A stretch of DNA of 64,000 nucleotides from Nonlabens antarcticus (GTDB lineage: Bacteria > Bacteroidota > Bacteroidia > Flavobacteriales > Flavobacteriaceae): assembly GCF_015356755.1 (NCBI RefSeq), contig NZ_JADFCO010000063.1, forward strand, positions 248,001-312,000. Direction: 5' to 3'. How positions within the stretch are numbered: position 1 is the stretch's first letter; every line of letters starts with the position of its first letter. Positions 1,432 through 61,991 of the stretch are shown in pieces. The translations under genes were made by a program, and so were the position numbers. The notes under the pieces are model-generated. The model did not search any database, was not told the DNA's origin, and was given only the letters and a program-made list of their open reading frames with translations.

Positions 1432-4400
1432 TTAGTTATTGGATGGAACTATGGATGAGTTGGTTTTTGCCTGTTCGTTTTTGATTCTGGCAAGTTCCGT
1501 TTTTGCCTGTGCAACAACTTCTGGATATTGCGAGAAATTGTCAATCACACCTTGCAATAAGGTTACTGCATTCAAGGTTTGTTTTGTGGCGTCATAACTT
1601 TTCGCCATGACCACAAGACCTCGAGCGCTCCATAATTTATAGCTTCCATAGTTTTTAGAGAGGCTTTGCACGGTTGCGATAGCCTCACTATGTTTCCCTT
1701 CTTGATTCTCAAAATATGCCTTATAAAACGTAGCCTCTGCAGCTGTGACACCGCTGGAGTTACTGAACACTTCTGCATAACCGCGTTTTGCAGCTGCCAT
1801 ATCATTACGCTTGAAGGAAGATCTTGCAATGATCAATTGTGCATCTGATCTTACCGCAGCGACTGTTGAACTATCTCCCAATACTTTATTAGCATAACCT
1901 ACCGCTTTATCAAATTGCTCCGTTTCATAGTAGGCTTTCATCAAGTTTGATTGTGCGTAAGCTTTGTTCTGTGGGAAATCTGCTGTAGCTTCTAGTTTTA
2001 TTAATATGGGTATCGCTTTCGCGAAAGCGGACTTTCTATCACCACCATCACTAACCGCATCATTCAACAATATTTCTCCCAGTCGTGCCAGTGCCTGTTC
2101 AGAATACTCGCTGCGCTCGCGGTCTGCAACATATTGATAATTAGGAATACTTGCTGCCTTATTACCTTCAGAAAAATACGCCTGCGCTAGATTGAAATGC
2201 GCCTGTAAAGCATATTTGCCATTGGGAAATTGCTCCAGATACTTTTTCAATTCACGCACCGCAGCACTCATGTTACCTTGTACAAATGGACGCTCTGCGC
2301 TCTCATAAGCCGTGTCATCCAGCTCTGAATCTGTGACATCAATAAAATCTAAACCACGCACCCAGCTCGCATATTCTGCCGTTTTACCTTGATCAATATA
2401 TACCAGTCTCGCACTACTCACAGCTTCTACTGCTTGCGGAGTTCCAGCATATTTTGATGCTACTTGTTTAAAAATAGCTAAAGCCTCATCGAGCTTATTG
2501 TCATTGTAAAACTGTAAACCCTTACGCATCATAGATGGTGCGGTATATCTACTGTTTGGAAATTCTTTAATTAAGCGATCATAAGTCTGTGTACCATCAG
2601 CGACTTTACCACTGTTGATGTAGGTATTCCCTAATTCATACAAAACATCATCACGAAATTGAGAATTTTTGAAGTTTTCTAGAAACGTATTAAGTTCTTG
2701 TATTTTGCTATCTATACGATCAACAAAACCATAAGACATTGCTTTCTGGAAGGTTGCATAGTCAGCAGCTGGTCCTCCCATTTTAATCGATTCGTTGTAG
2801 GACTCAATAGCTGGCCAGTATTTTTTTGATACAAAATTAGCATCTCCTATCCTCATGTAAGCATCGTTTGTTCTCACTTTATCATTTGAAAACTGAGCGA
2901 CAAAGCGCTCCATAGCGCTGATGCTAGAACTATAATTTTTTAATTTAAAATGGGTGTAACCCATATCATAATCTAACAATTTGTCTTCATCAATACTTGC
3001 ACTGATTTTGTTTGCCCGCTCAAACTCTGCTAACGCGTTGTTGAAATCACTCAATTCGTAAAGAGAAGCTGCTTTCCAAAATCGCGCTTTCTTCTCTAGA
3101 TTTTTTTCGGTTAAGTTTTTAATAGCCTTATCAAGATTAGCTCCCGCAGCAGCATAATCTCCTGCTGTGAATAAATTCAATCCATGATATAAAGCTACCT
3201 TACCGTATACATTTTCATTCCCGCGAATTCTACCATCTTCCAATAAACTGATGGCTTCCGCATAATTTTTAGAGCTGAAATAGGAATCGATCAACAGGTT
3301 GTTCATTTCATCCTTATTTTCTGCATTGGGATATTTCTCGATATAATTCAAGATCACCGCTGGAACGCTTTCGTATGGATTCCCGTTCTCATAGCTCAAT
3401 TTTGCATAGTTATAGGTGGCATCTTGAGTAATCTGATCATCGAGTGCAATTTCACTTGCCTTTTTGAAAGCGTTCAACGCATCCTCACCACGATCAAGCT
3501 TGATGTAACTTTGACCCAGGTGATAGTAAGCATTTTGAGCAGTCGCATTTTCACCTCCTATAATCTTATTGAAAGTTTCCACCGCGTTTGCAAAATCGCC
3601 TAGTTTGTAATACGTATAACCCAGCTGGTAATAATCGTTATTGTTCCATTTACCTCGAGTTCCCTGATATTTTTGCAAGTACGGTAAAGCTTCCTGATAT
3701 TTTTCTTGGTTGAATAAAGACTGTCCTATAACACGGTTCAATTCAGATTGTTCTGCGCGGTTAGAGGTCGACATTTGCTTTTCAGCTAGAGTGATCGCTT
3801 CATCAAAACGCCCTAGTTTATAATTAAGATCAGCTTGATAATACGATAACTTGGCATCCGTTTCTGGTGCCTCCTCTACCTCGTTGAATAAACCCTCTGC
3901 AGTTTCTAGGTCATCACCTTCATAAGCGATGTATCCCAGATAATATTTTGCTTTGGAACCATATTCTTGCGTATCGCTAACTCTGTTCAAATAAGGTTTA
4001 GCCTCGTCATATTTATTGCTTTGAACGAGTGTATAACCCTTATTGAAGTAGTACCGATTTTTTTGGTCTTCAGATAAGTTGTTTTCATCCACCTTATCAT
4101 ACCACAATACCGCCTGACGGTAATTACCACTTTCAAAATAATAGTCAGCAACATCAATGTAAGCGCTATTACTCTTTGTAGAGGTAGGATATTGCTTCAC
4201 AAAATTCTCTACCATCTCATCAGCATTGCGTTGATTCAATCGCACAGCGCAGTTTGCAGCATAATATGCAGCATTTCCTTTGATGGTTTCATCATCAATC
4301 TTTTCAACAACCGCTTCAAATAAACGTTGTGCCGCAACGTATTGATCCTCTTGATAAAGATCGACAGCAGTGTTGTAGTTGCGCAAGTTGTCCGTAAAAA

Positions 4401-4470
4401 TTTTAGACTGCTGGGCGAGTCCTGTATAAACGGCGCCTAATAAAAAAGCCGTAAGTGCAATTTTCCTCAT
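1432..4470 (-). CDS. Secreted tetratricopeptide-repeat protein, 1012 aa
   Basis: The protein has a signal peptide (MRKIALTAFLLGAVYTGLAQQ) and then an almost unbroken run of TPR units to the C-terminus, with the usual spacing of Tyr/Ala/Gly (for example NAYYHLGQSYIKLDRGEDA and DDVLYELGNTYINSGKVADG). It should be periplasmic or outer-membrane associated and act as a protein-binding scaffold. Long TPR proteins of this kind are common in Flavobacteriia, but no specific role can be read from the sequence. One copy of the dispersed 16-bp palindrome lies inside the gene at 2014-2029 and is read as AFAKA near residue 817. The barrel gene follows at 8 bp; ftsE is divergent. Confidence 0.85.
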   Translation of the reverse strand: MRKIALTAFLLGAVYTGLAQQSKIFTDNLRNYNTAVDLYQEDQYVAAQRLFEAVVEKIDDETIKGNAAYYAANCAVRLNQRNADEMVENFVKQYPTSTKSNSAYIDVADYYFESGNYRQAVLWYDKVDENNLSEDQKNRYYFNKGYTLVQSNKYDEAKPYLNRVSDTQEYGSKAKYYLGYIAYEGDDLETAEGLFNEVEEAPETDAKLSYYQADLNYKLGRFDEAITLAEKQMSTSNRAEQSELNRVIGQSLFNQEKYQEALPYLQKYQGTRGKWNNNDYYQLGYTYYKLGDFANAVETFNKIIGGENATAQNAYYHLGQSYIKLDRGEDALNAFKKASEIALDDQITQDATYNYAKLSYENGNPYESVPAVILNYIEKYPNAENKDEMNNLLIDSYFSSKNYAEAISLLEDGRIRGNENVYGKVALYHGLNLFTAGDYAAAGANLDKAIKNLTEKNLEKKARFWKAASLYELSDFNNALAEFERANKISASIDEDKLLDYDMGYTHFKLKNYSSSISAMERFVAQFSNDKVRTNDAYMRIGDANFVSKKYWPAIESYNESIKMGGPAADYATFQKAMSYGFVDRIDSKIQELNTFLENFKNSQFRDDVLYELGNTYINSGKVADGTQTYDRLIKEFPNSRYTAPSMMRKGLQFYNDNKLDEALAIFKQVASKYAGTPQAVEAVSSARLVYIDQGKTAEYASWVRGLDFIDVTDSELDDTAYESAERPFVQGNMSAAVRELKKYLEQFPNGKYALQAHFNLAQAYFSEGNKAASIPNYQYVADRERSEYSEQALARLGEILLNDAVSDGGDRKSAFAKAIPILIKLEATADFPQNKAYAQSNLMKAYYETEQFDKAVGYANKVLGDSSTVAAVRSDAQLIIARSSFKRNDMAAAKRGYAEVFSNSSGVTAAEATFYKAYFENQEGKHSEAIATVQSLSKNYGSYKLWSARGLVVMAKSYDATKQTLNAVTLLQGVIDNFSQYPEVVAQAKTELARIKNEQAKTNSSIVPSNN
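2014..2029. repeat. Dispersed 16-bp palindrome (exact copy)
   Basis: Exact cgctttcgcgaaagcg inside the TPR gene, read as AFAKA on the minus strand. Confidence 0.95.
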
Positions 4471-4592
4471 GAGAGCTATAGTTAGTCAGTGTGTAAAATT
4501 AGAATCCTACACTTTGTTAACGGCACTTTTCCTAATTAATTATACGCATGGTTATCCACAGCTTTATGTATTTTTACCTCAAAATATATTTC

Positions 4593-8738: not shown

Positions 8739-9878
8739 ATGCGCATTCTGCTGGTAGGCGAGTACAGTAATTATCACAACTCACTCAAACACGGTTTGAT
8801 CCAGCTGGGTCATGAGGTAATCATTGTGGGCGATGGCGATGGTTTCAAAGATCTTCCAGTGGATGTTTTTGTAGGCAGCGACTATTATCGCCGCAACAGG
8901 TTTCGTGAAAAATTCAAGGTTGCCTGGTGGAAACTTACAGGTCGCAACCTTGAAGATAACCTGAGGTTAGCACGCTTTCGCGAAAGCGAACATCTTCTCA
9001 AAGGTTTTGATATAGTGCAGTTTATCAACTCAAATCCATTTAGCTGCGAGCCGCCTGTTGAGATGAAAATGCTGAAGTTTCTCGTTGAAAATAACGGAAA
9101 ATGTTTTCTTGCTGCCTGCGGCGATGACTATCATTACGCAGATTATCTTACAAATTATCATGAAGGTTACAGCATTCTGGAAGCGGTAAAAATCGACTCC
9201 AGTTTAAAGCCTTTTTTGTGGCATACCTATAAATATTTAGGTCCGGAATATAAAGCTAACTATGAGTGGCTGGTCGATAAGTGTGTTGCCATAATTCCTA
9301 GTAATGTCGATTATGCAATGACATTGACGAGACAAATAAAAACTACAGAAATTATTCCAGCGCCCATAATTATCGATAAATACCAGCTGGAACAAAATGA
9401 AAACACCGAAGTTATCCAAATATTTCTGGGTATAAATCGACAAAATTACTGGAAAAAAGGCATTAATTATTTTGAGGAAGCTTTACTCCTACTCAAGGAA
9501 AAATATAATAATCAGGTGAATGTTACCGTAGCAGAAAATCTTCCCTATGTAGAATATATGACTCGTTTAAAGGATTCACACATTCTGTTAGATCAGGTAT
9601 TAAGCTATGATCAAGGATATAACGCACTGGAATCTATGCTCAAGGGAAAAGTAGTTTTTGCAGGTGCTGGGCCTGAATTCTTAAAAGCCCATAACCTAAA
9701 GAATATTGCAGTTATCAATGCTCAACCTGATGTCTCATATCTATTTGAACAAATTTCTATGCTGATAGAGAACCCAGAATCCCTACTATACATCGGAAAA
9801 AACGCAAGACGACATGTTGTGAAGTTTCATGATTCTGTGATGATTGCATCATTATTTGTAAAAAAATATAAATTTTAA
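8739..9878 (+). CDS. GT-B fold glycosyltransferase (GT1/GT4-like)
   Basis: A 379-residue protein with a two-Rossmann layout. The N-terminal half begins MRILLVGEYSNYHNSL, with HEVIIVGDGDGF. The C-terminal half has QIFLGINRQNYWKKG and the donor-binding stretch SYDQGYNALESMLKGKVVFA, where the acidic residue of the E-x7-E-like motif sits. The start at ATG 8739 leaves 30 bp to the divergent GT2; an upstream ATG at 8700 would run into that gene. The dispersed palindrome at 8973-8988 is read as RFRES. It is the last intact gene of the glycosylation cluster. Donor and acceptor are unknown. Confidence 0.8.
   Translation: MRILLVGEYSNYHNSLKHGLIQLGHEVIIVGDGDGFKDLPVDVFVGSDYYRRNRFREKFKVAWWKLTGRNLEDNLRLARFRESEHLLKGFDIVQFINSNPFSCEPPVEMKMLKFLVENNGKCFLAACGDDYHYADYLTNYHEGYSILEAVKIDSSLKPFLWHTYKYLGPEYKANYEWLVDKCVAIIPSNVDYAMTLTRQIKTTEIIPAPIIIDKYQLEQNENTEVIQIFLGINRQNYWKKGINYFEEALLLLKEKYNNQVNVTVAENLPYVEYMTRLKDSHILLDQVLSYDQGYNALESMLKGKVVFAGAGPEFLKAHNLKNIAVINAQPDVSYLFEQISMLIENPESLLYIGKNARRHVVKFHDSVMIASLFVKKYKF
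8973..8988. repeat. Dispersed 16-bp palindrome (exact copy)
   Basis: Exact cgctttcgcgaaagcg inside the GT-B gene, read as RFRES. Confidence 0.95.
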
Positions 9879-12274: not shown

Positions 12275-13366
12275 TCATATAATTTTGACCTCACCGCGTT
12301 CCTCACTAGAGTCACTTCCCGCCATTGCAGAACGATCCAACGTGAAAAATCTATAGGTGTTCCCAAACCCTTTACTAAGATTCATAAGGTCAATCACCTT
12401 CCCATGTTCTAGAGTTGCCATATCCCAGATTACTTGATCACCTCCTTTTGAGCTCATTTTAAGAGTATCAAAAGTTACTACCTGACCTGCCCATTCTGGT
12501 TTAAAATTCAAATCTGCAGTTACTAATATTTTTTGCTGAATCGCAGATATAGTAATAGTTGAAGCTGTCTTTGAGCGAGTTATTTTAGGAAGTATAAATT
12601 TTAAGAATCCGCTTAGAAACTTACCTTTTGGATAGTGCTTGTCATAAAATAGCGACATAGCTTTAAAAAACCTTTCCTTGTAGACTTTATCTTTTATTGT
12701 ACTTTCTCCTTTAAAGTGAATGGCTTTTTCAGATCCTATGTAATAGTTCTGAAATCCGTTTTTTAAAGCGGTAAAACTCAAATCAATATCCTCACCGTAC
12801 ATAAAGTACCGCTCGTCCAGTCCACCTAAACTTTCATAGACAGACTTTTTACCTAACATAAATGCTCCCACTAAAATCTCTGTTTGACCATTCTCATCTT
12901 CTTTTATTCTATGATCATAATAACTGGAAGAAAACCCCAGCAGTTTCAAAAGGGCGCTGGACCGTTTCGGTGTGCGCCGTTTACTTTCAGGAAGAAAATT
13001 TCCCGTTCCATCTAGCAATCGTACTCCTAAAAACCCTGTTTTTGAGTTCGCTTTCGCGAAAGCGAGACCTACATCAAAAACAGTTTCTCCAACAATGACA
13101 TCAGGATTTACAAGACAAATAAACGATCCTCGCGCTCGAGAGACCGCTATATTATTACCCTTAGAGAATCCATAATTCTCATCTAATTTGACAATTTTAA
13201 TCTTTTTATATCTTGTCGAAAGTCGCTCAACACTGCCATCAGTCGAGTCATTATCTACTACGATAATTTCAGATTGAATATTTGTAGTTGCGCGTAAAAC
13301 ACTTTCCACACACAGCTCTAAAAAAACCGAAGCATTGAAATTCAATATTACAACGGAGAGTTCCAT
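12275..13366 (-). CDS. Family 2 glycosyltransferase (rhamnosyltransferase-like)
   Basis: 363 residues. The GT-A core begins MELSVVILNFNASVFLELCV. It has VVDNDSTDGSVERL, DENYGFSKGNNIAV, the DxD-type CLVNPDVIVG and the late motif MYGEDIDLSFTALKNG, typical of wbbL/rhamnosyltransferase-like GT2 enzymes. The last 90 residues (after about 270) are not part of the GT core and resemble nothing I can name. The gene begins 1 bp after the recR stop, so it is probably co-transcribed and translationally coupled with recR. The palindrome at 13049-13064 is read as AFAKA in a loop. Confidence 0.85.
   Translation of the reverse strand: MELSVVILNFNASVFLELCVESVLRATTNIQSEIIVVDNDSTDGSVERLSTRYKKIKIVKLDENYGFSKGNNIAVSRARGSFICLVNPDVIVGETVFDVGLAFAKANSKTGFLGVRLLDGTGNFLPESKRRTPKRSSALLKLLGFSSSYYDHRIKEDENGQTEILVGAFMLGKKSVYESLGGLDERYFMYGEDIDLSFTALKNGFQNYYIGSEKAIHFKGESTIKDKVYKERFFKAMSLFYDKHYPKGKFLSGFLKFILPKITRSKTASTITISAIQQKILVTADLNFKPEWAGQVVTFDTLKMSSKGGDQVIWDMATLEHGKVIDLMNLSKGFGNTYRFFTLDRSAMAGSDSSEERGEVKII
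13049..13064. repeat. Dispersed 16-bp palindrome (exact copy)
   Basis: Exact cgctttcgcgaaagcg inside a GT2 gene, read as AFAKA. Confidence 0.95.
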
Positions 13367-14081: not shown

Positions 14082-15572
14082 TTGACTTCTACCCAAATCC
14101 TAATTACCATTGCCATTTACTTTGCTGTTTTGATCGCAATATCATTTATTGTGGGCAGGAAAGGTGATAGCGCTACCTTTTTTAGAGGCAATCGCAGCTC
14201 TCCATGGTACATTGTTGCTTTTGGAATGATAGGAGCCTCACTTAGCGGTGTGACATTTATTTCAGTTCCCGGTGCGGTTGAGTCCGGCGCGATGAATTAT
14301 TTCCAGGTAGTTCTGGGATATATTGTAGGTTACGGAGTGATCGGGCTAGTGCTCATGCCATTGTACTATCGCATGAATCTTACTTCTATTTATAGTTATC
14401 TGGGAGATCGATTTGGTAGTGCAGCTCAATATACCGGGAGTAGTTTTTTCATATTATCGCGCGTTGTAGGCGCTAGCTTCCGGTTATATCTGGTCGCTGG
14501 AGTATTACAGGCGTTTGTATTTGATGAGATGGGAATTGAATTCTGGCAGACCGTTACGTTTACGGTTTTGCTCATCTGGTTGTACACCTTCAAATCTGGT
14601 ATTAAAACCATCGTCTGGACAGATACACTGCAGACCTTATTTATGCTTATTGCTGTGGGCGTGGCTATCTACTACATATCTGATAGTTTGAACCTTGAAG
14701 GGATCGGTGGTATTATCTCTTTTGTAGGCGAGAGCGATCTGTCACAAATCTTTTTCTGGGACGACTGGAAAAGTGATCAATACTTTATAAAACAGTTTTT
14801 ATCAGGTGCTTTTATTGCTATCGTGATGACAGGTCTGGATCAGGATATGATGCAGAAAAACCTTACTTGTCGCAATCTAGGTGAAGCTCAGAAGAATATT
14901 TTTTGGTTTACAATCGTCCTCACGGTTGTGAATTTTATTTTTCTGGTTTTAGGAGTGTTGCTTACCGCTTTCGCGAAAGCGGAAAATATACAAGCCTCAA
15001 AAGATGCTTTGTTCCCGTCCATCGCAATGGATGGCGGTTTAGGAATGGGAATAGGGTTGGTATTTATTTTAGGTCTGATAGCAGCAGCCTACTCCAGTGC
15101 AGATAGCGCTTTGACGTCTCTCACCACATCTTTTTCTGTAGACATCGTAAAATTAGAAACTCGTTTTACAGATAAAAAGCAGCAGAACTTGAGGAAATTA
15201 TTCCACATAGGGTTTTCCATATTACTTATCGCGGTAATCGTCAGTTTTGAATACGTGATAAAGGATGCTAGTGTGATTAATAAACTATTTGTTTTTGCGG
15301 GATATACTTATGGGCCATTGCTGGGACTGTTCGGTTTTGGGATATTGACTAAACTTAAAGTGAATCATGTATTGATTCCGTTTATTGCGGTGGCCTCGCC
15401 GATACTTACGTTTTTGATCAGTTATCTATCCTCCACCTACGGCGGATTCGAATTTGGCTTCTTTGTATTGTTATTGAATGGAGCGATTACATTTTTGGGA
15501 ATGTGGATTGCGAGTATGTTTAATGATCAGACCGATCTTGAAACGATTCCATCCGCAGTTTCTAGTTCTTGA
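14082..15572 (+). CDS. Sodium:solute symporter (SSS family)
   Basis: 496 residues with about 13 membrane spans, beginning [20 protein letters not shown]. Typical SSS features are the [12 protein letters not shown] segment, [30 protein letters not shown] and the sodium-site-like [18 protein letters not shown]. It should import an organic solute (sugar, acid or amino acid) with Na+ at the inner membrane; the substrate cannot be assigned. The start is a TTG, 97 bp from divergent recR; no ATG is available before the first span. The palindrome at 14966-14981 falls in a loop and is read as AFAKA. Confidence 0.88.
14966..14981. repeat. Dispersed 16-bp palindrome (exact copy)
   Basis: Exact cgctttcgcgaaagcg inside the symporter gene, read as AFAKA. 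Confidence 0.95.
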
Positions 15573-18012: not shown

Positions 18013-18624
18013 ATGCATAACAAATTACATTCGTTTATCAATCTCGGGTTCCCTGATGCTGACGTGCAGTATGACGGAGGTTTTTACGCTTTCGCGAAAG
18101 CGGAACAACTCTTCAGCACCCTGCAACAAGAGATTCCATGGCGGCAAAACGAGATCACCGTGTTTGGAAAAACCTATAATGAACCACGATTGACGCAGTT
18201 GTATGGCGATGACCAAATGGAATACAGTTATAGTGGGATCGCGTTCAAAGCACTCGAATGGTCTCCCGCTATGAAATCCATCAAAGAAGATGTGGAAAAA
18301 GCGACGGGTTACCGGTTTAATATTTGTCTAGCCAACTTCTATCGCGACGGCAGCGATTCTAACGGCTGGCACGCAGATAATGAGAAGGAGTTGGGCCGCA
18401 ATCCTGTAATTGCTTCCATCAGTCTGGGACAGGAACGATTTTTTCACTTGCGGCATAACAAGAACAAAGAGTGGCGCTATAAATTCCCATTACAAAACGG
18501 AAGTCTACTGCTTATGGCAGGAGAAACACAACATACTTATAAGCACCAAGTAGCAAAAACCAAACACCAGATCCACCCGCGCATTAACCTGACGTTTAGA
18601 AAAGTCATCGATAGCTGTTCTTAA
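18013..18624 (+). CDS. AlkB-like 2-oxoglutarate/Fe(II) dioxygenase
   Basis: 203 residues of the AlkB fold. Iron ligands are His120 and Asp122 (NGWHADNE) and His178 (in THTYKHQVAK-like context). 2-oxoglutarate is bound by Arg190 and Arg196 (HPRINLTFR). EPRLTQLYGD and NFYRDGSDSNGWHAD match AlkB/ALKBH2-like repair enzymes. These remove N1-methyladenine and N3-methylcytosine lesions by oxidative demethylation. ATG 18013 is chosen; the upstream frame to 17950 would place residues over the promoter region. The dispersed palindrome at 18087-18102 gives AFAKA near residue 26. Confidence 0.87.
   Translation: MHNKLHSFINLGFPDADVQYDGGFYAFAKAEQLFSTLQQEIPWRQNEITVFGKTYNEPRLTQLYGDDQMEYSYSGIAFKALEWSPAMKSIKEDVEKATGYRFNICLANFYRDGSDSNGWHADNEKELGRNPVIASISLGQERFFHLRHNKNKEWRYKFPLQNGSLLLMAGETQHTYKHQVAKTKHQIHPRINLTFRKVIDSCS
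18087..18102. repeat. Dispersed 16-bp palindrome (exact copy)
   Basis: Exact cgctttcgcgaaagcg inside the AlkB-like gene, read as AFAKA. Confidence 0.95.
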
Positions 18625-21366: not shown

Positions 21367-21382
21367 CGCTTTCGCGAAAGCG
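21367..21382. repeat. Dispersed 16-bp palindrome (exact copy, intergenic)
   Basis: Exact cgctttcgcgaaagcg, 14 bp after the hydrolase stop. Confidence 0.95.
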
Positions 21383-23867: not shown

Positions 23868-24839
23868 CTACAAATGCACCACTAACAATTTCCCATTGCC
23901 AGAGCATCTTGCAGATAAATTTGTCAGTACTGAAGGAATAAGATATGTTTGAGAATTACTGAATTTATAAATCATTCCATCCTGCTCTAACTCACAATCA
24001 TCACCCACGTTCATGAGGATCGTAAAGCTGTCCCTAGGGTGTAAATCAATAGGTTCTTGTCCTTCAAATTGAAGAATATCAGCTAGAAAATAATCAGATC
24101 GCCCTAATTCTTGCACGCCTTGTTCTTGAAAATTGTAAGCGAGTTTGTAATTCTCTGCCTTGGAATAATCTGCCGCAGCGATGGATTGCTCTATATGGAG
24201 ATCTCTGGGTTTGCCTTTATCATCACGACGGTCATAGTCATAAACCCGATAGGTCACATCACTGCTTTGCTGGATTTCTGCAAGCATAATACCTGATCCT
24301 ATCGCATGTATAAATCCAGGTTTTATCAAAAACGCATCCCCCTCTTTTACTTTCTGGGAATTCAATAATGCAGGAAGATTGTTGTTGTGTATCGCTTTCG
24401 CGAAAGCGGACTCTTTACAATTTTCTTTAAAACCTAATGTCAATGTTGCACCTTCAACGGCATCCATCACATACCACATCTCTGTCTTGCCGGAGCTATT
24501 GTGCTTGTCGCGCGCCATGGCATCATCTGGATGTAACTGGATGGATAGATCCTGAGCGGCGTCGATATATTTGATCAAAAGGGGAAATTGTGTCCCGAAT
24601 TGTTCAAATATGCGTTTGCCCATCACTTCCTCGCCGTGGTTTTCTAGTAACCATTTTAAAGACCTCCCTTTAAAACTTCCAGAATCGACAATGGAAATAT
24701 CGTTTCCTACATCACTAATTTCCCAGCTTTCGCCCAATTTAGGAATGAAGGGATGAACTTTTTTAAGTGAATTCAATTTACTGCCACCCCAGATCTTTTC
24801 CTTGTAAATAGGCTGAAATGTTAGGGGATACCAGTTCAT
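23868..24839 (-). CDS. manA: Mannose-6-phosphate isomerase, class I
   Basis: 323 residues of the type I phosphomannose isomerase cupin. PIYKEKIWGGSKL is the start motif. Zinc ligands sit in SIQLHPDDAMA (Gln/His), KTEMWYV (Glu) and KPGFIHAIGSG (His). DVTYRVYDYDRRD carries the catalytic Arg. It interconverts mannose-6-phosphate and fructose-6-phosphate, feeding GDP-mannose and surface glycans. Its ATG overlaps the queD stop by 1 bp (TAATG), so translation is coupled. The palindrome at 24393-24408 inserts AFAKA in a loop. Confidence 0.92.
   Translation of the reverse strand: MNWYPLTFQPIYKEKIWGGSKLNSLKKVHPFIPKLGESWEISDVGNDISIVDSGSFKGRSLKWLLENHGEEVMGKRIFEQFGTQFPLLIKYIDAAQDLSIQLHPDDAMARDKHNSSGKTEMWYVMDAVEGATLTLGFKENCKESAFAKAIHNNNLPALLNSQKVKEGDAFLIKPGFIHAIGSGIMLAEIQQSSDVTYRVYDYDRRDDKGKPRDLHIEQSIAAADYSKAENYKLAYNFQEQGVQELGRSDYFLADILQFEGQEPIDLHPRDSFTILMNVGDDCELEQDGMIYKFSNSQTYLIPSVLTNLSARCSGNGKLLVVHL
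24393..24408. repeat. Dispersed 16-bp palindrome (exact copy)
   Basis: Exact cgctttcgcgaaagcg inside manA, read as AFAKA. Confidence 0.95.
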
Positions 24840-33390: not shown

Positions 33391-36300
33391 TTAATCCTCG
33401 AGTCTCAAGTCTAATCCTAGACCTTTCAATTCGTGCATTAATACATTAAATGACTCAGGCAATCCTGGTTCTGGCATAGGCTCACCTTTAACGATCGCCT
33501 CATAAGTCTTAGCACGTCCTACAACGTCATCAGACTTAACAGTCAGGATCTCTCTAAGTGTGCTCGATGCACCATAGGCCTCGAGTGCCCATACTTCCAT
33601 CTCACCAAATCGTTGACCACCAAATTGTGCTTTACCACCTAATGGCTGCTGTGTGATCAATGAATATGGACCGATAGAACGTGCGTGCATCTTATCGTCA
33701 ACCATATGACCCAGTTTCAACATGTAGATAATACCTACTGTTGCTGGCTGGTCAAAACGCTCTCCGGTTCCACCATCATATAAGTAGGTATGACCGAATC
33801 TTGGGATTCCTGCCTCATCTGTATAGGCGTTGATCTGGTCAAGGGTTGCTCCGTCAAAAATTGGTGTTGCAAAATTCTTGCCCAACTTCTCACCAGCCCA
33901 TCCTAGAACGGTCTCATAAATCTGCCCGATGTTCATACGCGATGGTACACCTAGTGGGTTTAGTACGATATCTACTGGAGTTCCATCCTCAAGAAATGGC
34001 ATATCCTCTGCACGTACAATACGCGCAACGATACCTTTATTCCCATGACGTCCTGCCATCTTGTCCCCTACTTTAAGCTTACGTTTTTTAGCAACGTAAA
34101 CTTTAGCAAGTTTTATAATTCCAGCTGGAAGCTCATCACCTACTGAAACAGTAAATTTCTCACGTCTCAAGGAACCTTGAAGGTCATTTTCCTTAATCTT
34201 ATAGTTGTGAAGTAAATCTGCAACCGTCTCGTTAGTTTCTTTAGTGGTAGTCCACGTTCCAGAAACTAAATGCGTAAAGTCATCAACAGAATTCATCATT
34301 TTCAACGTGTATTTCTTTCCTTTAGGAAGAACTTCTTCTCCTAAGTCATTGAATACACCTTGTGATGTTTTTCCACTTACTATTTCAAAAAGCTTATCAA
34401 CAAGTCTTGTCTTAAGATCATCAAACTTAGCTTGATATTCTTGTTCCAATCTTGCGATGTCTTCTTTATCCTGCGCTCTTTTCTTCTTGTCCTTAACGGC
34501 ACGAGAGAACAATTTCTTATCGATTACAACACCACGTAATGATGGAGAAGCTTTTAAAGAAGCATCTTTTACATCACCTGCTTTATCACCGAAGATTGCT
34601 CTTAGAAGTTTCTCTTCTGGAGTAGGATCTGATTCCCCTTTAGGAGTAATCTTACCTATTAATATATCTCCCGGCTCAACCTCTGCACCGATGCGGATCA
34701 TACCGTTCTCATCAAGATTTGCAGTAGCCTCTTCAGAAACGTTAGGTATGTCTGGCGTTAATTCCTCATTACCTAATTTTGTATCTCTTACATCCAGGGA
34801 ATATTCGTCCACGTGAATGGAAGTAAATATATCCTCACGAACTACTTTCTCTGATATTACAATCGCATCCTCAAAGTTGTAACCCTTCCATGGCATAAAT
34901 GCCACTTTCATGTTACGACCTAAAGCAAGCTCTCCAGCCTCAGTCGCATAACCCTGGCAAAGAACCTGTCCTTTACTTACACGATCACCCTTCTGAACGA
35001 TAGGCTTCAATGTTATAGAAGTACCTTGATTCGTCTTACGGAATTTGATCAAGTTATAACTGGTCTCATCCGGCTCAAAACTGATCAGTTTTTCACGATC
35101 TGTTCTATCGTACTCAATAACGACTCTTTGCGCATCTACATAAGCGACGGTACCAGGACCTTCTGCATTAATCAATACCCTAGAATCTTGAGCAACCTGT
35201 CTTTCAAGTCCTGTTCCTACAATAGGAGCATCAACTCTCAACAATGGAACTGCCTGACGCATCATGTTTGATCCCATCAGCGCTCTGTTTGCATCATCAT
35301 GTTCCAAGAAAGGAATTAACGAAGCAGAAATTGAAGCTATCTGGTTAGGTGCAACGTCTGCATAAACCACCTGACTAGGATCAACTACTGGGAAGTCACC
35401 TTCCATACGTGCAATTACATTTTCAGAAGTAATCTTTCCATTTTCCAATGGTAAGTTAGCCTGGGCAATGTGCATTCCTTCTTCTTCCTCAGCACTCAAG
35501 TAAATTGGGGCATCTTTAAGATTCACAACGCCGTCCTTAACGGTACGATATGGAGTCTCGATGAATCCCATGCTGTTCACTTTCGCGAAAACTGCAAGCG
35601 AGGAAATCAAACCAATATTCGGTCCCTCTGGAGTTTCAATTGGACATAATCGTCCGTAGTGTGTATAGTGAACATCACGAACCTCAAATCCTGCTCTTTC
35701 ACGGGAAAGTCCACCTGGTCCTAGCGCGGAAAGACGACGCTTGTGCGTGATCTCTGCGAGAGGATTGGTTTGATCCATGAATTGGGATAGTTGATTCGTC
35801 CCAAAGAAGGAATTAATTACAGAAGACAATGTCTTTGCATTAATAAGGTCAATAGGTGTAAATACCTCATTATCCCTAACATTCATTCTTTCACGAATAG
35901 TTCTTGCCATACGAGCAAGACCTACACCAAATTGTTGTGACAACTGCTCACCAACGGTACGAACGCGACGGTTAGACAAGTGGTCAATATCATCAATCTC
36001 TGCTTTAGAGTTGATCAACATGATCAAGTGCTTGATGATGGTAATGATGTCCTCTTTAGTTAGCACCTGCTTATCCATAGGGATATCCAGTTGCAATTTT
36101 TTATTCATACGGTAACGACCTACCTCACCTAGGTTGTATCTCTGGTCAGAGAAGAACAACTTATCGATGATACCGCGAGCAGTTTCTTCATCTGGCGGCT
36201 CAGCGTTACGTAATTGTCTGTAAATATGTTCTACCGCTTCTTTTTCAGAGTTGGTAGGATCTTTTTGTAAAGTATTATGGATAATAGCATAATCTGCAGA

Positions 36301-40581: not shown

Positions 40582-40597
40582 TGCTTTCGCGAAAGCG
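40582..40597. repeat. Dispersed 16-bp palindrome (one mismatch, intergenic)
   Basis: tgctttcgcgaaagcg, first base differs, between tuf and tRNA-Trp. Confidence 0.85.
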
Positions 40598-42061: not shown

Positions 42062-42077
42062 CGCTTTCGCGAAAGCG
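42062..42077. repeat. Dispersed 16-bp palindrome (exact copy, between tRNA genes)
   Basis: Exact cgctttcgcgaaagcg between tRNA-Thr(GGT) and tRNA-Gly. Confidence 0.95.
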
Positions 42078-45114: not shown

Positions 45115-45975
45115 TTAATTCAATGTCAAATATAGCTGAATTAGCGATAATTTTTCCTGAGGAAACCTAGAGGTTAACAACACCTTATCCCAACTTTTAA
45201 AACCATCACGCAACGTGCGCTGCTCTATCAGCTCATCAATGAGGTAGTCGTTAAAATAAGGAATGGTTGACAACTCATCCCGAGTTGACGTATTTAATTT
45301 ATGCTTTTTAAAGCCTTGTGGCGGTTTTATAAAAAAGTGTTTCTTCACTTCCAGCATTGTAGAGTCTGTGATTCCATACACATCCAGTACTTGCTCCATG
45401 GCGATAAAGCCGTTCAATTTGATGCGTTCCTCTAGAATCCTTCCAGATAATGCGGGACCTATTCCATAGACCTCTTTCAATTGTTCACGACTAGCGGTAT
45501 TAATATTACTAATAACAATCTTCCGGTCTTTATAGCTTGTATAAGATTTTGATTTCGTTTTTGGGTTATTAACCCAGGCAGGAAACTTAAAATAGGGTGA
45601 GATACTATCTAGCCACTGTTTACTTACCTCAGTCACTTGCTGGAATTGTGCTGGAGAATTGATAAATGTTCCGCTTTCGCGAAAGCGGTTTAACCGTAAC
45701 AACTCTTCTTCATTCAATCCTATTTGATAGGCACGATAATCATTGATATAGTTAGGATTGAAGGGATAGATCGTGTCCTTCTTGCGATAGGCAATGCGTT
45801 TGAGCGAGTCGATTTTTTCCTGATATTCAGAAACGTCAGTTAGAAGCAATCGATCATCAGGAATTGTTGAGGCATAATAACGCAATCCACAAACTATCAC
45901 TAACAATAGCATTAAAAGCAAAATCCCTCTTTGTTGTCGTTTGTCGAACAAAAAGAGGGATTTTAAATTTTTCAT
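45115..45975 (-). CDS. Helix-hairpin-helix (ComEA-like) protein with N-terminal membrane anchor
   Basis: 286 residues. A single membrane span near residues 18-31 (GILLLMLLLVIVCG) is followed by several HhH units: NINTASREQLKEVYGIGPAL, SGRILEERIKLNGFIAMEQV and LNTSTRDELSTIPYFNDYLI. The fold binds DNA non-specifically; ComEA uses it for DNA uptake. This protein is longer than ComEA and no comEC is near, so competence is only one possibility. The palindrome at 45672-45687 is read as RFRES. It starts 9 bp after the symporter gene. Confidence 0.78.
   Translation of the reverse strand: MKNLKSLFLFDKRQQRGILLLMLLLVIVCGLRYYASTIPDDRLLLTDVSEYQEKIDSLKRIAYRKKDTIYPFNPNYINDYRAYQIGLNEEELLRLNRFRESGTFINSPAQFQQVTEVSKQWLDSISPYFKFPAWVNNPKTKSKSYTSYKDRKIVISNINTASREQLKEVYGIGPALSGRILEERIKLNGFIAMEQVLDVYGITDSTMLEVKKHFFIKPPQGFKKHKLNTSTRDELSTIPYFNDYLIDELIEQRTLRDGFKSWDKVLLTSRFPQEKLSLIQLYLTLN
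45127..45134 (-). promoter_or_regulatory. Promoter -7 box of the acyl-CoA dehydrogenase gene
   Basis: TATATTTG on the minus strand inside the 3' end of the HhH gene, 35 nt before ATG 45091. Confidence 0.4.
45672..45687. repeat. Dispersed 16-bp palindrome (exact copy)
   Basis: Exact cgctttcgcgaaagcg inside the HhH gene, read as RFRES. Confidence 0.95.
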
Positions 45976-49425: not shown

Positions 49426-50700
49426 CTATGAAGGACTGCGCATCAAGTGAATTCCAATATCACAGTTCAAACAAGCGTTTTTATCGCAATAATTAGGTTT
49501 GAGCTCTAGAACCGCTTGGGATTCCAATGCGTTTTTTAACCCTATCAATTTATGAAACTGATTTGTTATCGTGTTTTTTTCCATTTTAATACCACGCATC
49601 AGCAGCAGTAACTCCTCTATATTTTGCTTGCCTTGATATTTTGCATATGCAAACCTGACTGGCACAACACAGTTAATAATCAAAAGGTCGATAAATTCGG
49701 AAGTCAAATACTTCTCTCGCTTTTCAGTGATTTTATCAAACAAGTGGCGTTCATCCCAGTAATTAGCTGCCTTTATTTGAAATAATTTCATGATTTTTTC
49801 CCTGGAGTCAGCCATTAGGATTTCCGCAAACAAAAGTGGATTTCTTTGATAGAGCATCGCTAACTGTGATAATCGTACCGTAGGATAATTTGCCGGCCGC
49901 AACCTGAAAAATTTAAGCTTGGTAAGGATAGGGTCGAGTTGGTATTTCGCTTTCGCAAAAGCGTATTCTTTTTTAAGATTCTGAAAATATCTATCTTCAT
50001 GAATGGTATCTAGCAAGCCAGATTGTCCCATCAACACAGACTCTAACTGAAACGCATCATGAGCCAATTTACGCAACACAGATTGATTCATACTGGTTGC
50101 GATCTGCTCAAAAGCATCTGCATTTACCTTAGTGCCGAAACTTCTCATCAACATCTGAAAAAAGGTAGCTTCCCAATCGTTATTGTTCACATCAAGGCTC
50201 GACATTATACGGTCATAACGCTTTTCTAGCCGCTGGATAAAAACTTTTTCTAACCACATATCTCTTAGAAAAGTATCGATGTTTGCTATGCTCTTTTCGC
50301 AATTAATAAACTGATTATTCTTGTGGGCAAATAGACTGGTGTAAGAAATAATGAGCTCGTCAGACACGTATTTAGCGACCTCTAGAACCGGGATGTCAAT
50401 CTCACTGCGACGCGTGATTTCTGCATCGTGTTTCCATACCACATGCAAGATGACATTATCATAGGCAGGATCGTCATCATGTCCATGACGATACCAGTCA
50501 CTAGCGCGCAAGTGCATCTCTACATTTCCAGCCCAGGCTTGACCAGCAATCTCTACCCTACAATTAAAGAAGTCAGGCCCAGAGTGGTGGTTGTGTGTTC
50601 CTAAAGATTTAATCACCACCGATTGACCAGCGGTAGTTTTAAGATCCAGACCATTTAACTTCTTGAATTTCCAGAGGTAATGGATAAAATCTTCCTGCAT
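49426..50700 (-). CDS. DUF2851 family protein
   Basis: 424 residues. MQEDFIHYLWKFKKLNGLDL, HNHHSGPDFFNCRVEIAGQA and WAGNVEMHLRASDWYRHGHD are the DUF2851 signature. The His/Asp-rich N-terminal region looks like a metal-binding site, and the end has a Cys cluster (KPNYCDKNACLNCDIG). Function is unknown. The palindrome copy at 49948-49963 has one mismatch and is read as AFAKA. It is the first gene of the DUF2851-PspC-K+ channel unit. Confidence 0.85.
   Translation of the reverse strand: MQEDFIHYLWKFKKLNGLDLKTTAGQSVVIKSLGTHNHHSGPDFFNCRVEIAGQAWAGNVEMHLRASDWYRHGHDDDPAYDNVILHVVWKHDAEITRRSEIDIPVLEVAKYVSDELIISYTSLFAHKNNQFINCEKSIANIDTFLRDMWLEKVFIQRLEKRYDRIMSSLDVNNNDWEATFFQMLMRSFGTKVNADAFEQIATSMNQSVLRKLAHDAFQLESVLMGQSGLLDTIHEDRYFQNLKKEYAFAKAKYQLDPILTKLKFFRLRPANYPTVRLSQLAMLYQRNPLLFAEILMADSREKIMKLFQIKAANYWDERHLFDKITEKREKYLTSEFIDLLIINCVVPVRFAYAKYQGKQNIEELLLLMRGIKMEKNTITNQFHKLIGLKNALESQAVLELKPNYCDKNACLNCDIGIHLMRSPS
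49948..49963. repeat. Dispersed 16-bp palindrome (one mismatch)
   Basis: cgctttcgcaaaagcg in the DUF2851 gene, read as AFAKA; the change is silent for the peptide. Confidence 0.85.
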
Positions 50701-52325: not shown

Positions 52326-52341
52326 CGCTTTCGCGAAAGCG
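52326..52341. repeat. Dispersed 16-bp palindrome (exact copy, intergenic)
   Basis: Exact cgctttcgcgaaagcg between the FtsX-type and CBS-like genes. Confidence 0.95.
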
Positions 52342-53622: not shown

Positions 53623-54912
53623 ATGTTCAAATATACCATAATCCTTATGGCTTTTATGGTATCGTCCTGCGATGCCAGTGTCAATCAAAAAAATAAAATT
53701 AATTCTAAAACGGGTGAAACCACCACCATTCCTATAGCGGTTGATAGCTCTCAATTTGTGAGGCCAGTTCAAAATATGTCTACCACAGCCGCAGATCAAG
53801 TTAGCAGCTGGATAGGACAACTAAAAGGAAAGCGTGTTGCTGTAGTGGGCAATCAAACGAGTATAGTCAATTCATTAAATAAAGAGCAACGTCGCACTTG
53901 GGATCAGGCAGAAAAGATAAAATATGTACATCTAGTGGATACTTTAGTTTCATTAGGCGTTGATGTAAAAAAAGTTTTTGCTCCAGAACACGGTTTTAGA
54001 GGCAATGCAGATGCGGGTACCGCAATAGCTGATGGCACTGATAAAAGAACTGGATTGCCCATAATATCTTTATACGGAAATAACAAAAAACCCACAGCTG
54101 AACAATTAGCAGATGTCGACGTTATTCTTTTTGACATTCAGGATGTAGGTGCTCGATTCTACACCTACATATCAACACTACATTATGTAATGGAAGCCGC
54201 TGCTGATAGTAAGAAAACGGTGATCATCCTGGATAGACCTAATCCCAATGGACATTACATTGATGGACCCATACTTGATTCACAACACAAGAGTTTTGTG
54301 GGAATGCATCCAGTACCTGTCGTTCATGGGATGACAATGGGTGAATATGCACAAATGATCAATGGAGAAAAGTGGTTGCCCTATGGAAAACAAGCTAAGA
54401 TAAATGTGATTAAATTGAAAAATTACACTCACGACACACCTTATACTTTACCCATCCCACCGTCTCCCAACTTGCCCAATGCGCAAGCAGTCAACCTCTA
54501 TCCCAGCCTTTGCTTTTTTGAGGGCGCTGATGTGAGTGTAGGTCGCGGTACTAATATGCAGTTCCAGGTGTATGGCTCGCCATCGCTCGCAAAATATCGA
54601 GATTTCTCATTTACTCCTACTCCAGGCTATGGTTCTAAAAGACCGCCTTTTAATGGTAAGAAATGCTTTGGGGTTGATCTGCGGGAATATCCAAAATTGG
54701 ATAAATTACAGTTGGATTTTTTAGTAGACGCTTACGCGAAAGCGCCTTATAAAGAAACCTTTTTCAATTCCTTTTTCACTAATCTAGCCGGCACAAAAAA
54801 CCTGCAAGCTCAAATCGAAAAAGGTATGAGTGCCGCTGCAATTTCACAAACCTGGCAACAAGGTTTGAAAGAGTATGACAAAATGAGACAGCCTTATTTA
54901 TTATATGAATAG
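53623..54912 (+). CDS. DUF1343 / NamZ-like exo-beta-N-acetylmuramidase lipoprotein
   Basis: 429 residues. Lipoprotein signal MFKYTIILMAFMVSSC has lipidated Cys16. The N-terminal Rossmann-like part (KGKRVAVVGNQTSIVN, KKVFAPEHGFRGNADAGTAI, VDVILFDIQDVGARFYTYIS) is the DUF1343 signature. DRPNPNGHYIDGPIL and SVGRGTNMQFQVYGSP complete the family (GH171, NamZ), which removes MurNAc from peptidoglycan fragments. It likely serves cell-wall recycling in the periplasm. The longer frame to 53590 overlaps the divergent permease start. A mismatched palindrome at 54729 reads AYAKA. Confidence 0.87.
   Translation: MFKYTIILMAFMVSSCDASVNQKNKINSKTGETTTIPIAVDSSQFVRPVQNMSTTAADQVSSWIGQLKGKRVAVVGNQTSIVNSLNKEQRRTWDQAEKIKYVHLVDTLVSLGVDVKKVFAPEHGFRGNADAGTAIADGTDKRTGLPIISLYGNNKKPTAEQLADVDVILFDIQDVGARFYTYISTLHYVMEAAADSKKTVIILDRPNPNGHYIDGPILDSQHKSFVGMHPVPVVHGMTMGEYAQMINGEKWLPYGKQAKINVIKLKNYTHDTPYTLPIPPSPNLPNAQAVNLYPSLCFFEGADVSVGRGTNMQFQVYGSPSLAKYRDFSFTPTPGYGSKRPPFNGKKCFGVDLREYPKLDKLQLDFLVDAYAKAPYKETFFNSFFTNLAGTKNLQAQIEKGMSAAAISQTWQQGLKEYDKMRQPYLLYE
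53628..53635 (-). promoter_or_regulatory. Promoter -7 box of the FtsX-type gene
   Basis: TATATTTG on the minus strand, within the first codons of the NamZ-like gene and 19 nt before TTG 53609. Confidence 0.5.
54729..54744. repeat. Dispersed 16-bp palindrome (one mismatch)
   Basis: cgcttacgcgaaagcg in the NamZ-like gene, read as AYAKA. Confidence 0.85.
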
Positions 54913-57413: not shown

Positions 57414-58517
57414 TTACAGTTTATCAAATTCTGCGCTCAATCGTTTTGTGATTTCATCAATGGATCCCTCCCCATTAACGCCGTAATATTTATCTAATTT
57501 CTGATAATAATTCTTGAGCGGTGCCGTCTGTCTGTAGTACACGCTAATGCGCCCACGTATTACTTGCTCGTTAGCATCGTCGGGACGTCCACTGCTCTTT
57601 CCTCTTTCTAATAAACGTTCTACGAGAACTTCATCATCCACCTCTAGTGCCACCATTCCACTTACTCCTGTTCCTTTACCTTCTAGTAGATTATCAAGAG
57701 CTTTAGCTTGTGCGTCAGTTCTAGGAAATCCATCAAAAATGAATCCTGCTCCATTTGGAGTTTTTTCCACTTCAGCTTTCAACATTTTGATCGTGACTTC
57801 ATCTGGAACTAAATTTCCTTTATCCATGAAGGATTTGGCTAATATTCCCAGGTCAGTAGAATTCTTGATATTGTATCTAAAAACATCTCCTGTCGAGATA
57901 TGAACAAGACCATATTTCTCTTTTAAACGTTCTGCCTGAGTTCCTTTTCCCGCTCCTGGAGGACCGAATAGCACTATATTTTTCATAGGGTTAGTCTGTA
58001 CGTAAAGTTCGGGCAGGTTGCGCCCTAAATTGTTATAATCCATGCCGTAGCCTACGACAAATTTATTCTCAATATTTTGACCTACATAATCAATTTTCAA
58101 CTGTCGGTTGTAAACTTCTGGTTTTAGAAATAAGGTCGCAATATAAAGTGCAGAAGGATTGTGGGATTTAAGCTTTCGCGAAAGCGCATCTATTGTAAGT
58201 CCCGTATCTACAATGTCTTCAACAATAATTACCGCACGATCGGTAAGATCAACATCCAGCTCCATATCCAGTCGTATCTCTCCTGTAGATGAAGTCCCTT
58301 CATAACTACTCGTGCGCAAGAATGCAACCTCACAATCACCCATGAATTTCCGGGTCAGGTCTGCCAGAACCATATAACTTCCATTCAAAACTCCCAAAAA
58401 AATAGGGTTTTTGTCCTTTAAGTCTCGATTGATTTGATAGGCAAGGTTTTCCACAGCGCCATCAATCTCTTTTACACTCAAAAAGGGCTTAAAATAAAGG
58501 TCGTGAATTTTACGCAA
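57414..58517 (-). CDS. Fused hypoxanthine phosphoribosyltransferase-adenylate kinase
   Basis: 367 residues with two enzymes. Residues 1-175 are a purine phosphoribosyltransferase (VLNGSYMVLADLTRKF; PRPP loop VEDIVDTGLT, 99-108). Residues 178-367 are adenylate kinase (P-loop GPPGAGKGT at 185-193; IFDGFPRT; RGKSSGRPDD), a short form without the zinc LID. The pair links purine salvage to AMP/ADP balance. This fusion is known in Flavobacteriia. The start is TTG 58517, supported by a promoter box 17 nt upstream. A near-palindrome at 58171 reads LSRK. Confidence 0.92.
   Translation of the reverse strand: MRKIHDLYFKPFLSVKEIDGAVENLAYQINRDLKDKNPIFLGVLNGSYMVLADLTRKFMGDCEVAFLRTSSYEGTSSTGEIRLDMELDVDLTDRAVIIVEDIVDTGLTIDALSRKLKSHNPSALYIATLFLKPEVYNRQLKIDYVGQNIENKFVVGYGMDYNNLGRNLPELYVQTNPMKNIVLFGPPGAGKGTQAERLKEKYGLVHISTGDVFRYNIKNSTDLGILAKSFMDKGNLVPDEVTIKMLKAEVEKTPNGAGFIFDGFPRTDAQAKALDNLLEGKGTGVSGMVALEVDDEVLVERLLERGKSSGRPDDANEQVIRGRISVYYRQTAPLKNYYQKLDKYYGVNGEGSIDEITKRLSAEFDKL
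58171..58186. repeat. Dispersed 16-bp palindrome (one mismatch)
   Basis: agctttcgcgaaagcg in the hpt-adk gene, read as LSRK. Confidence 0.85.
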
Positions 58518-61204: not shown

Positions 61205-61241
61205 AAAGCTCCTCAGATGTAAAATCTTGTCGAGGAGCATT
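61205..61241 (-). terminator. Terminator after the SDR gene
   Basis: Arms gctcctc (61208-61214) and gaggagc (61232-61238) with T-rich sequence on the minus strand. Confidence 0.65.
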
Positions 61242-61307
61242 TAATTATCGGTAGATAATAATTTTACTCTCAGCGGTTTTAAATCAAAAATCTCCAATCA
61301 AAAAACC

Positions 61308-61991
61308 CTACGGCGTACTACTACTCACTTCAAGCGTCTTTCCATTATAGAATTTATTTCCGGTCAAGGCAAATTCCATAATATATTGAGCCATTTCTTT
61401 AGGTTGCAATGGTGCGTCGTAACCTGGAAACGCTTCAGCGAGCATTTCTGTTTGTACGGCCCCTAGTGCAAGCGTGTTGAAAGCAGGTCCGTTTTCTTTG
61501 TATTCTTCGGCGAGCAACTCAAAAAGTGTAATAACCGCGGCTTTTGCGCTGCTGTAAGCGGCTAGTCCTGGGAATTTTGAACTGCCTTGAATGCCGCCCA
61601 TGGAACTTATTGCAACCACGTGGGAGTTGGAATTCATCAACGGCAATAACCCTTGGGTTAATCCAGCCACGCCATAAACATTGACTTCATAACAATTCTT
61701 AAAGTCGGCTTTTGTGAGTTCTTCAAACGGTTTATTAACTAAAAAACCCGCATTGTGAATCAAGATATCTACTTTATCAAAACGCTTTTTAATTGCTGAA
61801 ACCGCACTTTCTATACTGGATTCCTGTGCTAGATCACAAGAGATAGCAGTAATTCTAGAATTGTTGAGTTCTTGAATGGGAGCACGCTTTCGCGAAAGCG
61901 CGATCACTTCATCCCCATTAGCAGCAAATAGCTGAGCCAATTCAAATCCTATACCGCGGCTGGTGCCTGTTACTACTATATTTTTACTCAT
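61308..61991 (-). CDS. Short-chain dehydrogenase/reductase
   Basis: 227 residues. The cofactor motif is VTGTSRGIGFELAQ (7-20), with LIHNAGFLVNKPFE. Catalytic residues are Ser (VAISSMGGIQG) and the Tyr/Lys pair in AAYSSAKAAVITL. The substrate is unknown. Its first codons overlap the M28 peptidase gene by 8 bp, so it is translated from the same mRNA. The palindrome at 61885-61900 is read as LSRKR. Confidence 0.9.
   Translation of the reverse strand: MSKNIVVTGTSRGIGFELAQLFAANGDEVIALSRKRAPIQELNNSRITAISCDLAQESSIESAVSAIKKRFDKVDILIHNAGFLVNKPFEELTKADFKNCYEVNVYGVAGLTQGLLPLMNSNSHVVAISSMGGIQGSSKFPGLAAYSSAKAAVITLFELLAEEYKENGPAFNTLALGAVQTEMLAEAFPGYDAPLQPKEMAQYIMEFALTGNKFYNGKTLEVSSSTP
61885..61900. repeat. 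Dispersed 16-bp palindrome (exact copy)
   Basis: Exact cgctttcgcgaaagcg inside the SDR gene, read as LSRKR. Confidence 0.95.

Follow-up and report, generated by a model that had tools for sequence, protein, structure and literature searches.

A highly iterated palindrome with G-poor arms in Nonlabens and Dokdonia genomes and its possible role as a two-way, Chi-like DNA signal

Chi sites, DNA uptake sequences and the highly iterated palindrome HIP1 of cyanobacteria each opened a field, and HIP1 remains unexplained. Known Chi sites are short, oriented and non-palindromic; those of Escherichia coli are reportedly located in G/T-rich islands favoured by RecA, a protein that favours T/G-rich, C-poor composition. 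The parS, Noc, SlmA and MatP sites are palindromes of about 16 bp read by dimers. Here we describe a palindrome dispersed over a 64,000-nucleotide stretch of Nonlabens antarcticus DNA (contig NZ_JADFCO010000063.1, positions 248,001 to 312,000; below, the window) and over the genomes of its relatives. We use the term core for the 14-bp palindrome GCTTTCGCGAAAGC, and 16-mer for the core with the outermost base on each side, usually C...G. Site-rich genomes carry about 400-900 copies each of a dyad-symmetric DNA element built around this core. The element is almost certainly an iterated recognition signal of one kind or another that is under selection, and the mechanism that we tentatively rank first is a two-way, Chi-like self or repair signal.

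An earlier note, made from the letters of the window alone, had reported 12 exact copies of the 16-mer and 4 copies with one mismatch, and all of them were found at the positions it gave. We located further copies with two mismatches at 4803 and with three mismatches at 35578, which brought the matches with up to three mismatches to 18, against a mean of 0.16 in shuffled sequences; none of 100 shuffles reached 18. Judged by the core, the copies at 40582 and 58171 are intact, as only the outermost base differs, and those at 49948 and 54729 have one change within the core each. The whole source genome (3,270,668 bases in 66 contigs) contains 480 exact 16-mers and 611 cores, and the control, in which the word was read backwards, gave 0. 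In the window pooled with 60 loci (1.24 Mb of sequence from Nonlabens, with orthologous copies from several species included), 252 cores were counted where an order-2 Markov model expects 0.0, so that the element, like the HIP palindromes, is far over expectation. Chance and codon use were thus ruled out by the shuffles, the reversed control, the Markov expectation and a letter-matched control palindrome. The excess claimed in the note was thereby borne out, as was its reading of the word as an iterated, HIP1-like palindrome that is neither an insertion sequence nor an operon feature; the counts in the genome and in relatives gave neither a chance frequency nor confinement to the window. The arms, minimum spacing, shared positions and phage copies described below lay beyond what the note could see.

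The range of the element is narrow. In a sample of 99 genomes, all 23 members of the genus (the source genome included) carried 180-737 exact 16-mers and the remaining 76 carried 0-4. Among 397 Flavobacteriaceae genomes, 317 were without any match to the core; four Nonlabens members had 578-664 cores, Dokdonia sinensis (G266) had 857 and a member of a further genus (G250) had 408. Low counts were found in two genomes of genus g100 (16 and 19) and in one of g75 (17; another had 1), with 0-9 in the rest. Of 26 genomes reached via named loci, 18 labelled Nonlabens or Dokdonia carried 385-905 cores, and seven others (from Aquimarina, Flavobacterium, Saprospiraceae and more) carried 1-10; these 26 were picked through the word itself and form a biased sample. 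The site-rich lineages are at least those listed here. We also notice a metagenome-assembled genome labelled Cytophagaceae bacterium SAT149 (G480, reached via L082) with 369 cores in 2.8 Mb, which may be another rich lineage or a mislabelled assembly. In an RpoB tree of 30 genomes, G250 and Dokdonia grouped, with support, with the poor genus G204, and Nonlabens stood separate with its fork unresolved. A single origin of the rich state is compatible with this tree but not demanded by it. A de novo search for 12-mers in eight poor genera (40-100 kb each) returned no comparable iterated word, though rarer or shorter words would escape it. In the literature covered by our search, to which subscription papers, preprints and figures did not belong, neither the 16-mer nor the 14-mer occurred in any paper, no paper mentioned highly iterated palindromes along with Bacteroidetes, and none mentioned palindromes along with both Dokdonia and Nonlabens.

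The core is nearly invariant. In the pooled set, the 252 exact cores were accompanied by 23 copies that differed at one position and 21 that differed at two, in comparison to 0, 0 and 3 for the same-letter control palindrome; the 16-mer was found 210 times exactly, 55 times with a single mismatch, which in 40 cases hit the outermost base, and 20 times with two, after which the counts fell to background. Lone half-sites outside full sites were about 2.3-fold enriched (56 vs 24.1 expected), and the inner hexamer TCGCGA outside sites was near expectation (122 vs 113.9). On both sides the core is followed by an arm of about 30-45 bp, and the two arms are dyad-symmetric, the outward strand of each being poor in G. 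The outward G fraction was 0.048 at +4 to +10, 0.083 at +11 to +20 and 0.113 at +21 to +30, with 0.18-0.20 past +50, and both A and C were raised alongside the drop in G. This effect reached farthest in Nonlabens, to about +50, and ended by about +30 in Dokdonia and about +20 in G250; close to the core, Nonlabens has the consensus G-R-A-A-T-Y-A and Dokdonia G-T-A. An A-T and R-Y undulation of 9.5-11.5 bp was weak in the Nonlabens arms, and the Dokdonia arms had no 10-bp period (best 6.5-7), hence helical phasing of the arms is not claimed. The two arms of one site matched each other no better than arms re-paired from other sites, and their folding energy was no better either; the 16-mer alone folds at -4.3 kcal/mol. 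A cruciform with extended arms was rejected on these grounds, and since the arms are unpaired within a site, the element is not a hairpin signal.

Of the 252 pooled cores, 130 lay inside predicted genes and 122 between genes, in DNA that is 87% coding by simple prediction. The coding copies used all three frames (72 AFAKA, 30 RFRES, 28 LSRK), and the orientation of the genes flanking the gap copies tracked the length of each gap class. Neighbouring sites were typically about 4-5 kb apart and pairs within 1 kb were almost absent: over all loci, 1% of 191 neighbour gaps were shorter than 1 kb, vs 22% under random placement. In a set restricted to one genome and the window, which avoids most orthologous repeats, such short gaps numbered 2 of 97 against 22.1 in simulations (minimum 10 in 2000 simulations), so that the core is over-represented and spaced more evenly than random, as uptake sequences are. 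The corresponding counts were 1 of 38 in Dokdonia G266 and 0 of 18 in G250, and each of 25 20-kb stretches along the complete G002 chromosome held 1-8 copies (variance/mean 0.70).

Individual sites were compared between genomes (Table 1). In the rpoB-rpoC spacer, the exact 16-mer was present in 19 of the 20 genus genomes examined, despite differing flanks (three further genus genomes were too fragmented to be included; RpoB was identified by Pfam and RpoC by match to phage rpoC). The same spacer carries the site in Dokdonia sinensis and G250, and in none of 25 other genomes compared. Many spacers of these 25 poor genomes contained other, unrelated inverted repeats, as seen by eye and uncounted; a hairpin or palindrome may be wanted in this spacer in general. 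The coding sites that are intact in the window retained the core in 34 of 35 comparisons, in contrast to 5.4-12.8% of random aligned 14-mers, though 17 of the comparisons come from a single site, the genomes are related by descent and local alignments are biased towards conserved words. The gap sites at 21367, 40582, 42062 and 52326 were less constant. Conversely, 90 cores of other genomes could be aligned to the window, and 70 of them were identical here. The differences comprised 12 in coding DNA, all of them single-base substitutions without gaps that fall at two places, and another 8 within one spacer. As judged from the aligned genomes, the window copy at 49948 is probably a recent loss; at 54729 (core from 54730) one genome shares the change found in the window, hence loss and gain are indistinguishable there. 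Taken together, the alignments indicate that many copies are old and kept in place; losses by point change are seen, and the spacers show turnover.

Table 1. Copies of the palindrome in the window, with their location and their state in aligned genomes.
Feature	Position	Location	Frame and comparison
Exact 16-mer	2014..2029	coding, TPR protein 1432-4470 (-)	frame AFAKA; no relative aligned
Exact 16-mer	8973..8988	coding, 8700-9878 (+)	frame RFRES; no relative aligned
Exact 16-mer	13049..13064	coding, glycosyltransferase 12275-13366 (-)	frame AFAKA; no relative aligned
Exact 16-mer	14966..14981	coding, SSF symporter 14082-15572 (+)	core in 3/3 aligned genomes
Exact 16-mer	18087..18102	coding, 17950-18624 (+)	core in 3/3 aligned genomes
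Exact 16-mer	21367..21382	intergenic	core in 2/2 aligned genomes
Exact 16-mer	24393..24408	coding, 23868-24839 (-)	core in 2/2 aligned genomes
Exact 16-mer	33348..33363	rpoB-rpoC spacer	core in 20/20 genus genomes examined (own included)
Extended element, example	33303..33408	rpoB-rpoC spacer	16-mer 33348-33363 flanked on both sides by G-poor arms of about 45 bp
Core intact, outer base C>T	40582..40597	intergenic	core in 5/18 aligned rows
Exact 16-mer	42062..42077	intergenic	core in 7/17 aligned rows
Exact 16-mer	45672..45687	coding, HHH_3 protein 45115-45975 (-)	core in 17/17 aligned genomes
One change in core	49948..49963	coding	core intact in 9/10 aligned genomes
Exact 16-mer	52326..52341	intergenic	core intact in 3/6 aligned genomes; other 3 interrupted after first half
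One change in core	54729..54744	coding	core intact in 3/6 aligned genomes; one has the same change as the window
Core intact, outer base C>A	58171..58186	coding, 57414-58517 (-)	frame LSRK; core in 4/5 aligned genomes
Exact 16-mer	61885..61900	coding, short-chain dehydrogenase 61308-61991 (-)	frame LSRKR; core in 5/5 aligned genomes

Some features of single sites deserve mention. At L205, L207, L218, L222, L223 and L235, among them homologues of the window site at 52326, hairpin-like modules of about 20-50 nt lie inside the palindrome and split it into two halves; several Nonlabens genomes are affected. By their position, these modules look like target-specific insertions near the palindrome centre, and a comparable repeat module inside HIP1 is reported in PMC4390886. 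One of the best-conserved coding copies is held by the gene of the HHH_3 protein, whose helix-hairpin-helix domain (PF12836) is of the kind found in ComEA-like DNA receptors. The half-site CGCTTTCGCGAATGT and its variant CGCTTTCGCGGAAGCG recur within repeated Asp-rich protein units (L204, L206, L208, L210 and L213), near the equivalents of window positions 8-28 kb.

The element is also found on, and missing from, mobile DNA. Contigs of HK97-type tailed phages, with portal, protease, capsid and tape-measure genes and distantly related to Cellulophaga phage phi39:1 (capsid 45% identity), carry sites together with the G-poor arms. Two groups of them (the near-identical L137, L140, L141 and L153, and L148 with L152) are about 65% identical and have one site at a common position, intact in both, while a third group differs there by a single base; of the sites in another phage pair, 87-90% identical, one was retained and one lost. 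In 34 GC-poor loci the G fraction at +4 to +10 was 0.084, in comparison to 0.378 in seven GC-rich viral contigs with chance matches, which were without arms. The retention of the site by phages suggests that it serves the molecule carrying it. The lytic phage P12024S of a Nonlabens relative had 0 sites in 35.7 kb (about 6.7 expected, P 1.3e-3), and a 53-kb gap in the source genome, chosen as site-free, holds conjugation and bacteriophage exclusion (BREX) genes. This region, which resembles an integrative and conjugative element (ICE; L243-L245, G000:C58:45001-100000), includes TraG, coupling proteins, BrxC, PglZ, an Eco57I-type methylase and an ADP-ribosyltransferase/glycohydrolase protein. 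A second long gap between 16-mers (G017:C1:37818-69257) was rejected as site-free, as it contains three cores with other outer bases. In other genera, 11 genomes with low counts supplied 13 stretches for comparison, and 12 of these had DNA in common with a single heavy-metal island (reference L164, with an RND pump, a multicopper oxidase, P-type ATPases and an ArsP-like permease). The islands (L164-L176, of which L169 is unmatched), spread over several Flavobacteriaceae genera, keep the site spacings and the arms in hosts that are otherwise nearly site-free, and may have passed through a site-rich host.

These observations point to an element under strong DNA-level selection for a dimeric reader. 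The strictness of the core, its palindromic form and the constraint at the DNA level argue for a dimeric protein on double-stranded DNA, whereas the strand-asymmetric arms argue for a step that involves single strands. Because the inward-reading strand, which would be the 3'-ended one once an end has been processed up to the site, is T/G-rich, in keeping with the polarity of Chi, we placed a two-way Chi-like signal first. According to this scheme, a homodimeric protein of the clade would read the core in double-stranded DNA, and the site so bound would halt or redirect a nuclease arriving from a broken end, whichever side that end lies on. The 3'-ended strand beside the site would then be the inward-reading arm, T/G-rich and C-poor, and the palindrome would give the same answer from both sides; since one site per few kb would suffice, close pairs would bring no gain. 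The Chi-like reading is supported by the strict palindromic core, by the constraint in all three frames and in spacers, by arms that are keto-rich inwards, symmetric and independent of transcription, by the minimum spacing, by the lack of the site in a lytic phage and an ICE, and by an AddAB-like pair in genomes where RecC was not found; a site shared by phage groups as diverged as those above is expected if the carrier molecule benefits. In a wider form, the element may represent a new class of signal, with a two-way palindromic core, strand-asymmetric loading arms and minimum distances, copied by phages, through which a dimeric reader distinguishes the cell's own DNA from foreign DNA when ends are processed or DNA is maintained; we hold this at somewhat below even chance.

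Several points weigh against the Chi-like reading. Known Chi sites are short and oriented, while here the whole 14-bp palindrome is needed and half-sites are enriched only to the extent given above. Chi alone predicts no minimum spacing, which uptake or loop anchoring explains equally well. The 5'-side and 3'-side arms in genes are alike overall, so that their composition is independent of transcription, and the depletion of G at codon positions 1, 2 and 3 (+4 to +10) was 3.0-, 3.3- and 4.3-fold on the 3' side; on the 5' side, however, it was uneven (1.8-, 5.0- and 9.8-fold). Positions that change the amino acid therefore share in the depletion, though on the 5' side to a smaller degree than silent positions, and part of the arm signal may have a mutational origin. 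A pure deamination bias may account for the arms, and the 5' folds speak for it; against it, C rises like A and all codon positions of the 3' side are depleted.

The search for a reader was made in 34 genomes of which 9 are rich, and no reader protein was found among the families searched, which weighs against the Chi-like reading. RecC was present in 0 of the 34 genomes, and RecBCD was rejected on this ground. The PDDEXK_1 nuclease domain (AddB-like) was found in all 34, rich or poor, with at least two matches in 28, and is therefore no particular feature of the rich genomes. An AddAB-like helicase/nuclease pair is present, and its locus was compared in 4 genomes; AddA and AddB of the rich G000, G266 and G250 were no closer to each other than to those of the poor sister genus G204, and this one comparison revealed no AddAB type special to the rich genera. 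The gene between addB and addA looked specific to the rich genomes in these loci, yet its product has a class I/II aminotransferase domain. Two sites lying 109 bp from each other at L182 were examined for a reader gene and no regulator was seen, though no family search was made there.

Two alternatives, both of them named as options in the earlier note, rank as close rivals to the Chi-like reading. The first, hardly a confident choice itself, is a site for a clade-specific dimeric nucleoid or segregation protein, which would act as MatP, SlmA or Noc do, but over the whole genome, anchoring loops or leaving a mark at intervals of a few kb. A strict palindromic core, the even and unclustered spread in G002, the minimum spacing, the conservation of single sites between genomes and the undulation in the Nonlabens arms are all in line with such a protein. 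The G-poor strand of 30-45 bp is poorly explained by a double-strand binder, however, and the undulation has no counterpart in Dokdonia. Chromosomal ParB was found in all 34 genomes, as a single ParB match in 7 of the 9 rich ones, and extra ParB-like proteins of about 600 aa occurred in G000, G019 and several poor genomes, so that no extra ParB is common to the rich genomes. With the lack of clustering on the one chromosome sampled, this disfavours the parS/Noc option of the earlier note.

The second close rival, which we consider unlikely, is a DNA uptake (self-recognition) sequence of natural transformation, spread and kept through biased uptake of DNA from kin. Its copy number, even spacing and occurrence in genes and gaps match traits of uptake sequences as given in PMC1939737 and PMC7811141, and the absence of sites from one ICE and one lytic phage fits as well. 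Known uptake sequences are, however, non-palindromic according to PMC1939737, in contrast to the perfect palindrome of the core; moreover, diverged phages retain the site, and the arms are strand-asymmetric and not AT-rich.

A HIP1-like palindrome linked to a DNA methyltransferase would agree with an iterated palindrome limited to a few genera and with the tracking of methyltransferases by HIPs in cyanobacteria, which PMC4390886 describes, but we regard it as very improbable. The C5 methyltransferase family (PF00145) is missing from 5 of the 9 rich genomes (G000, G010, G020, G022 and G250) and PF01555 from 3 (G005, G010 and G266), with G010 devoid of both; neither family is common to the rich genomes, the methylation site proposed in the note gained no support from these two families, and TCGCGA outside the sites is not enriched.

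Still less probable is an element acting in RNA, as a hairpin, terminator or processing site. The folding of the 16-mer and the inverted repeats noticed by eye in the rpoB-rpoC spacers of other genomes speak for it, but the arms are the same on both sides with respect to transcription and pair no better than their composition predicts, and the gene orientation around gap copies follows gap length, which likewise disfavours a promoter. Finally, a self-spreading repeat similar to repetitive extragenic palindromic (REP) sequences or miniature inverted-repeat transposable elements, which the note had also listed, would account for the many copies and the hairpin modules in some of them, but is barely credible with about half of the copies in predicted genes, many at orthologous places common to several genomes, and coding differences that are ungapped single changes.

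The palindrome is long enough to be unambiguous, many of its sites are conserved over about 20 genomes of the genus, and it has a measurable extended structure; it occurs in cultured marine bacteria and in phage contigs. Compared with known systems, it resembles the uptake signal sequences of Haemophilus and the DNA uptake sequences of Neisseria in hundreds to thousands of copies, even spacing and occurrence in genes and gaps (PMC1939737 and PMC7811141), and differs from them in its palindromic core, the kind of its arms and its retention by phages. With REP sequences and their REP-associated tyrosine transposases (RAYT) it shares the short palindrome and the high copy number, yet REPs are extragenic, whereas the present element is found as often in genes and many of its positions are conserved. 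The parS, Noc, SlmA and MatP sites are similar in length and symmetry, but the element occurs in hundreds of copies along the whole sampled chromosome, with no additional ParB paralogue shared by the rich genomes. HIP1 and the other HIPs of cyanobacteria are likewise perfect palindromes, highly iterated in genes and gaps, clade-restricted and unexplained in function; the element described here is longer (14-16 bp vs 8 bp) and several times rarer, and it differs also in its G-poor arms, its minimum spacing and the lack of a common methyltransferase among the two families searched. The likeness to Chi lies in a density of about one site per 4-5 kb, near that of E. coli Chi, in T/G-rich sequence around the site on the strand that would carry the 3' end, and in the presence of an AddAB-like pair.

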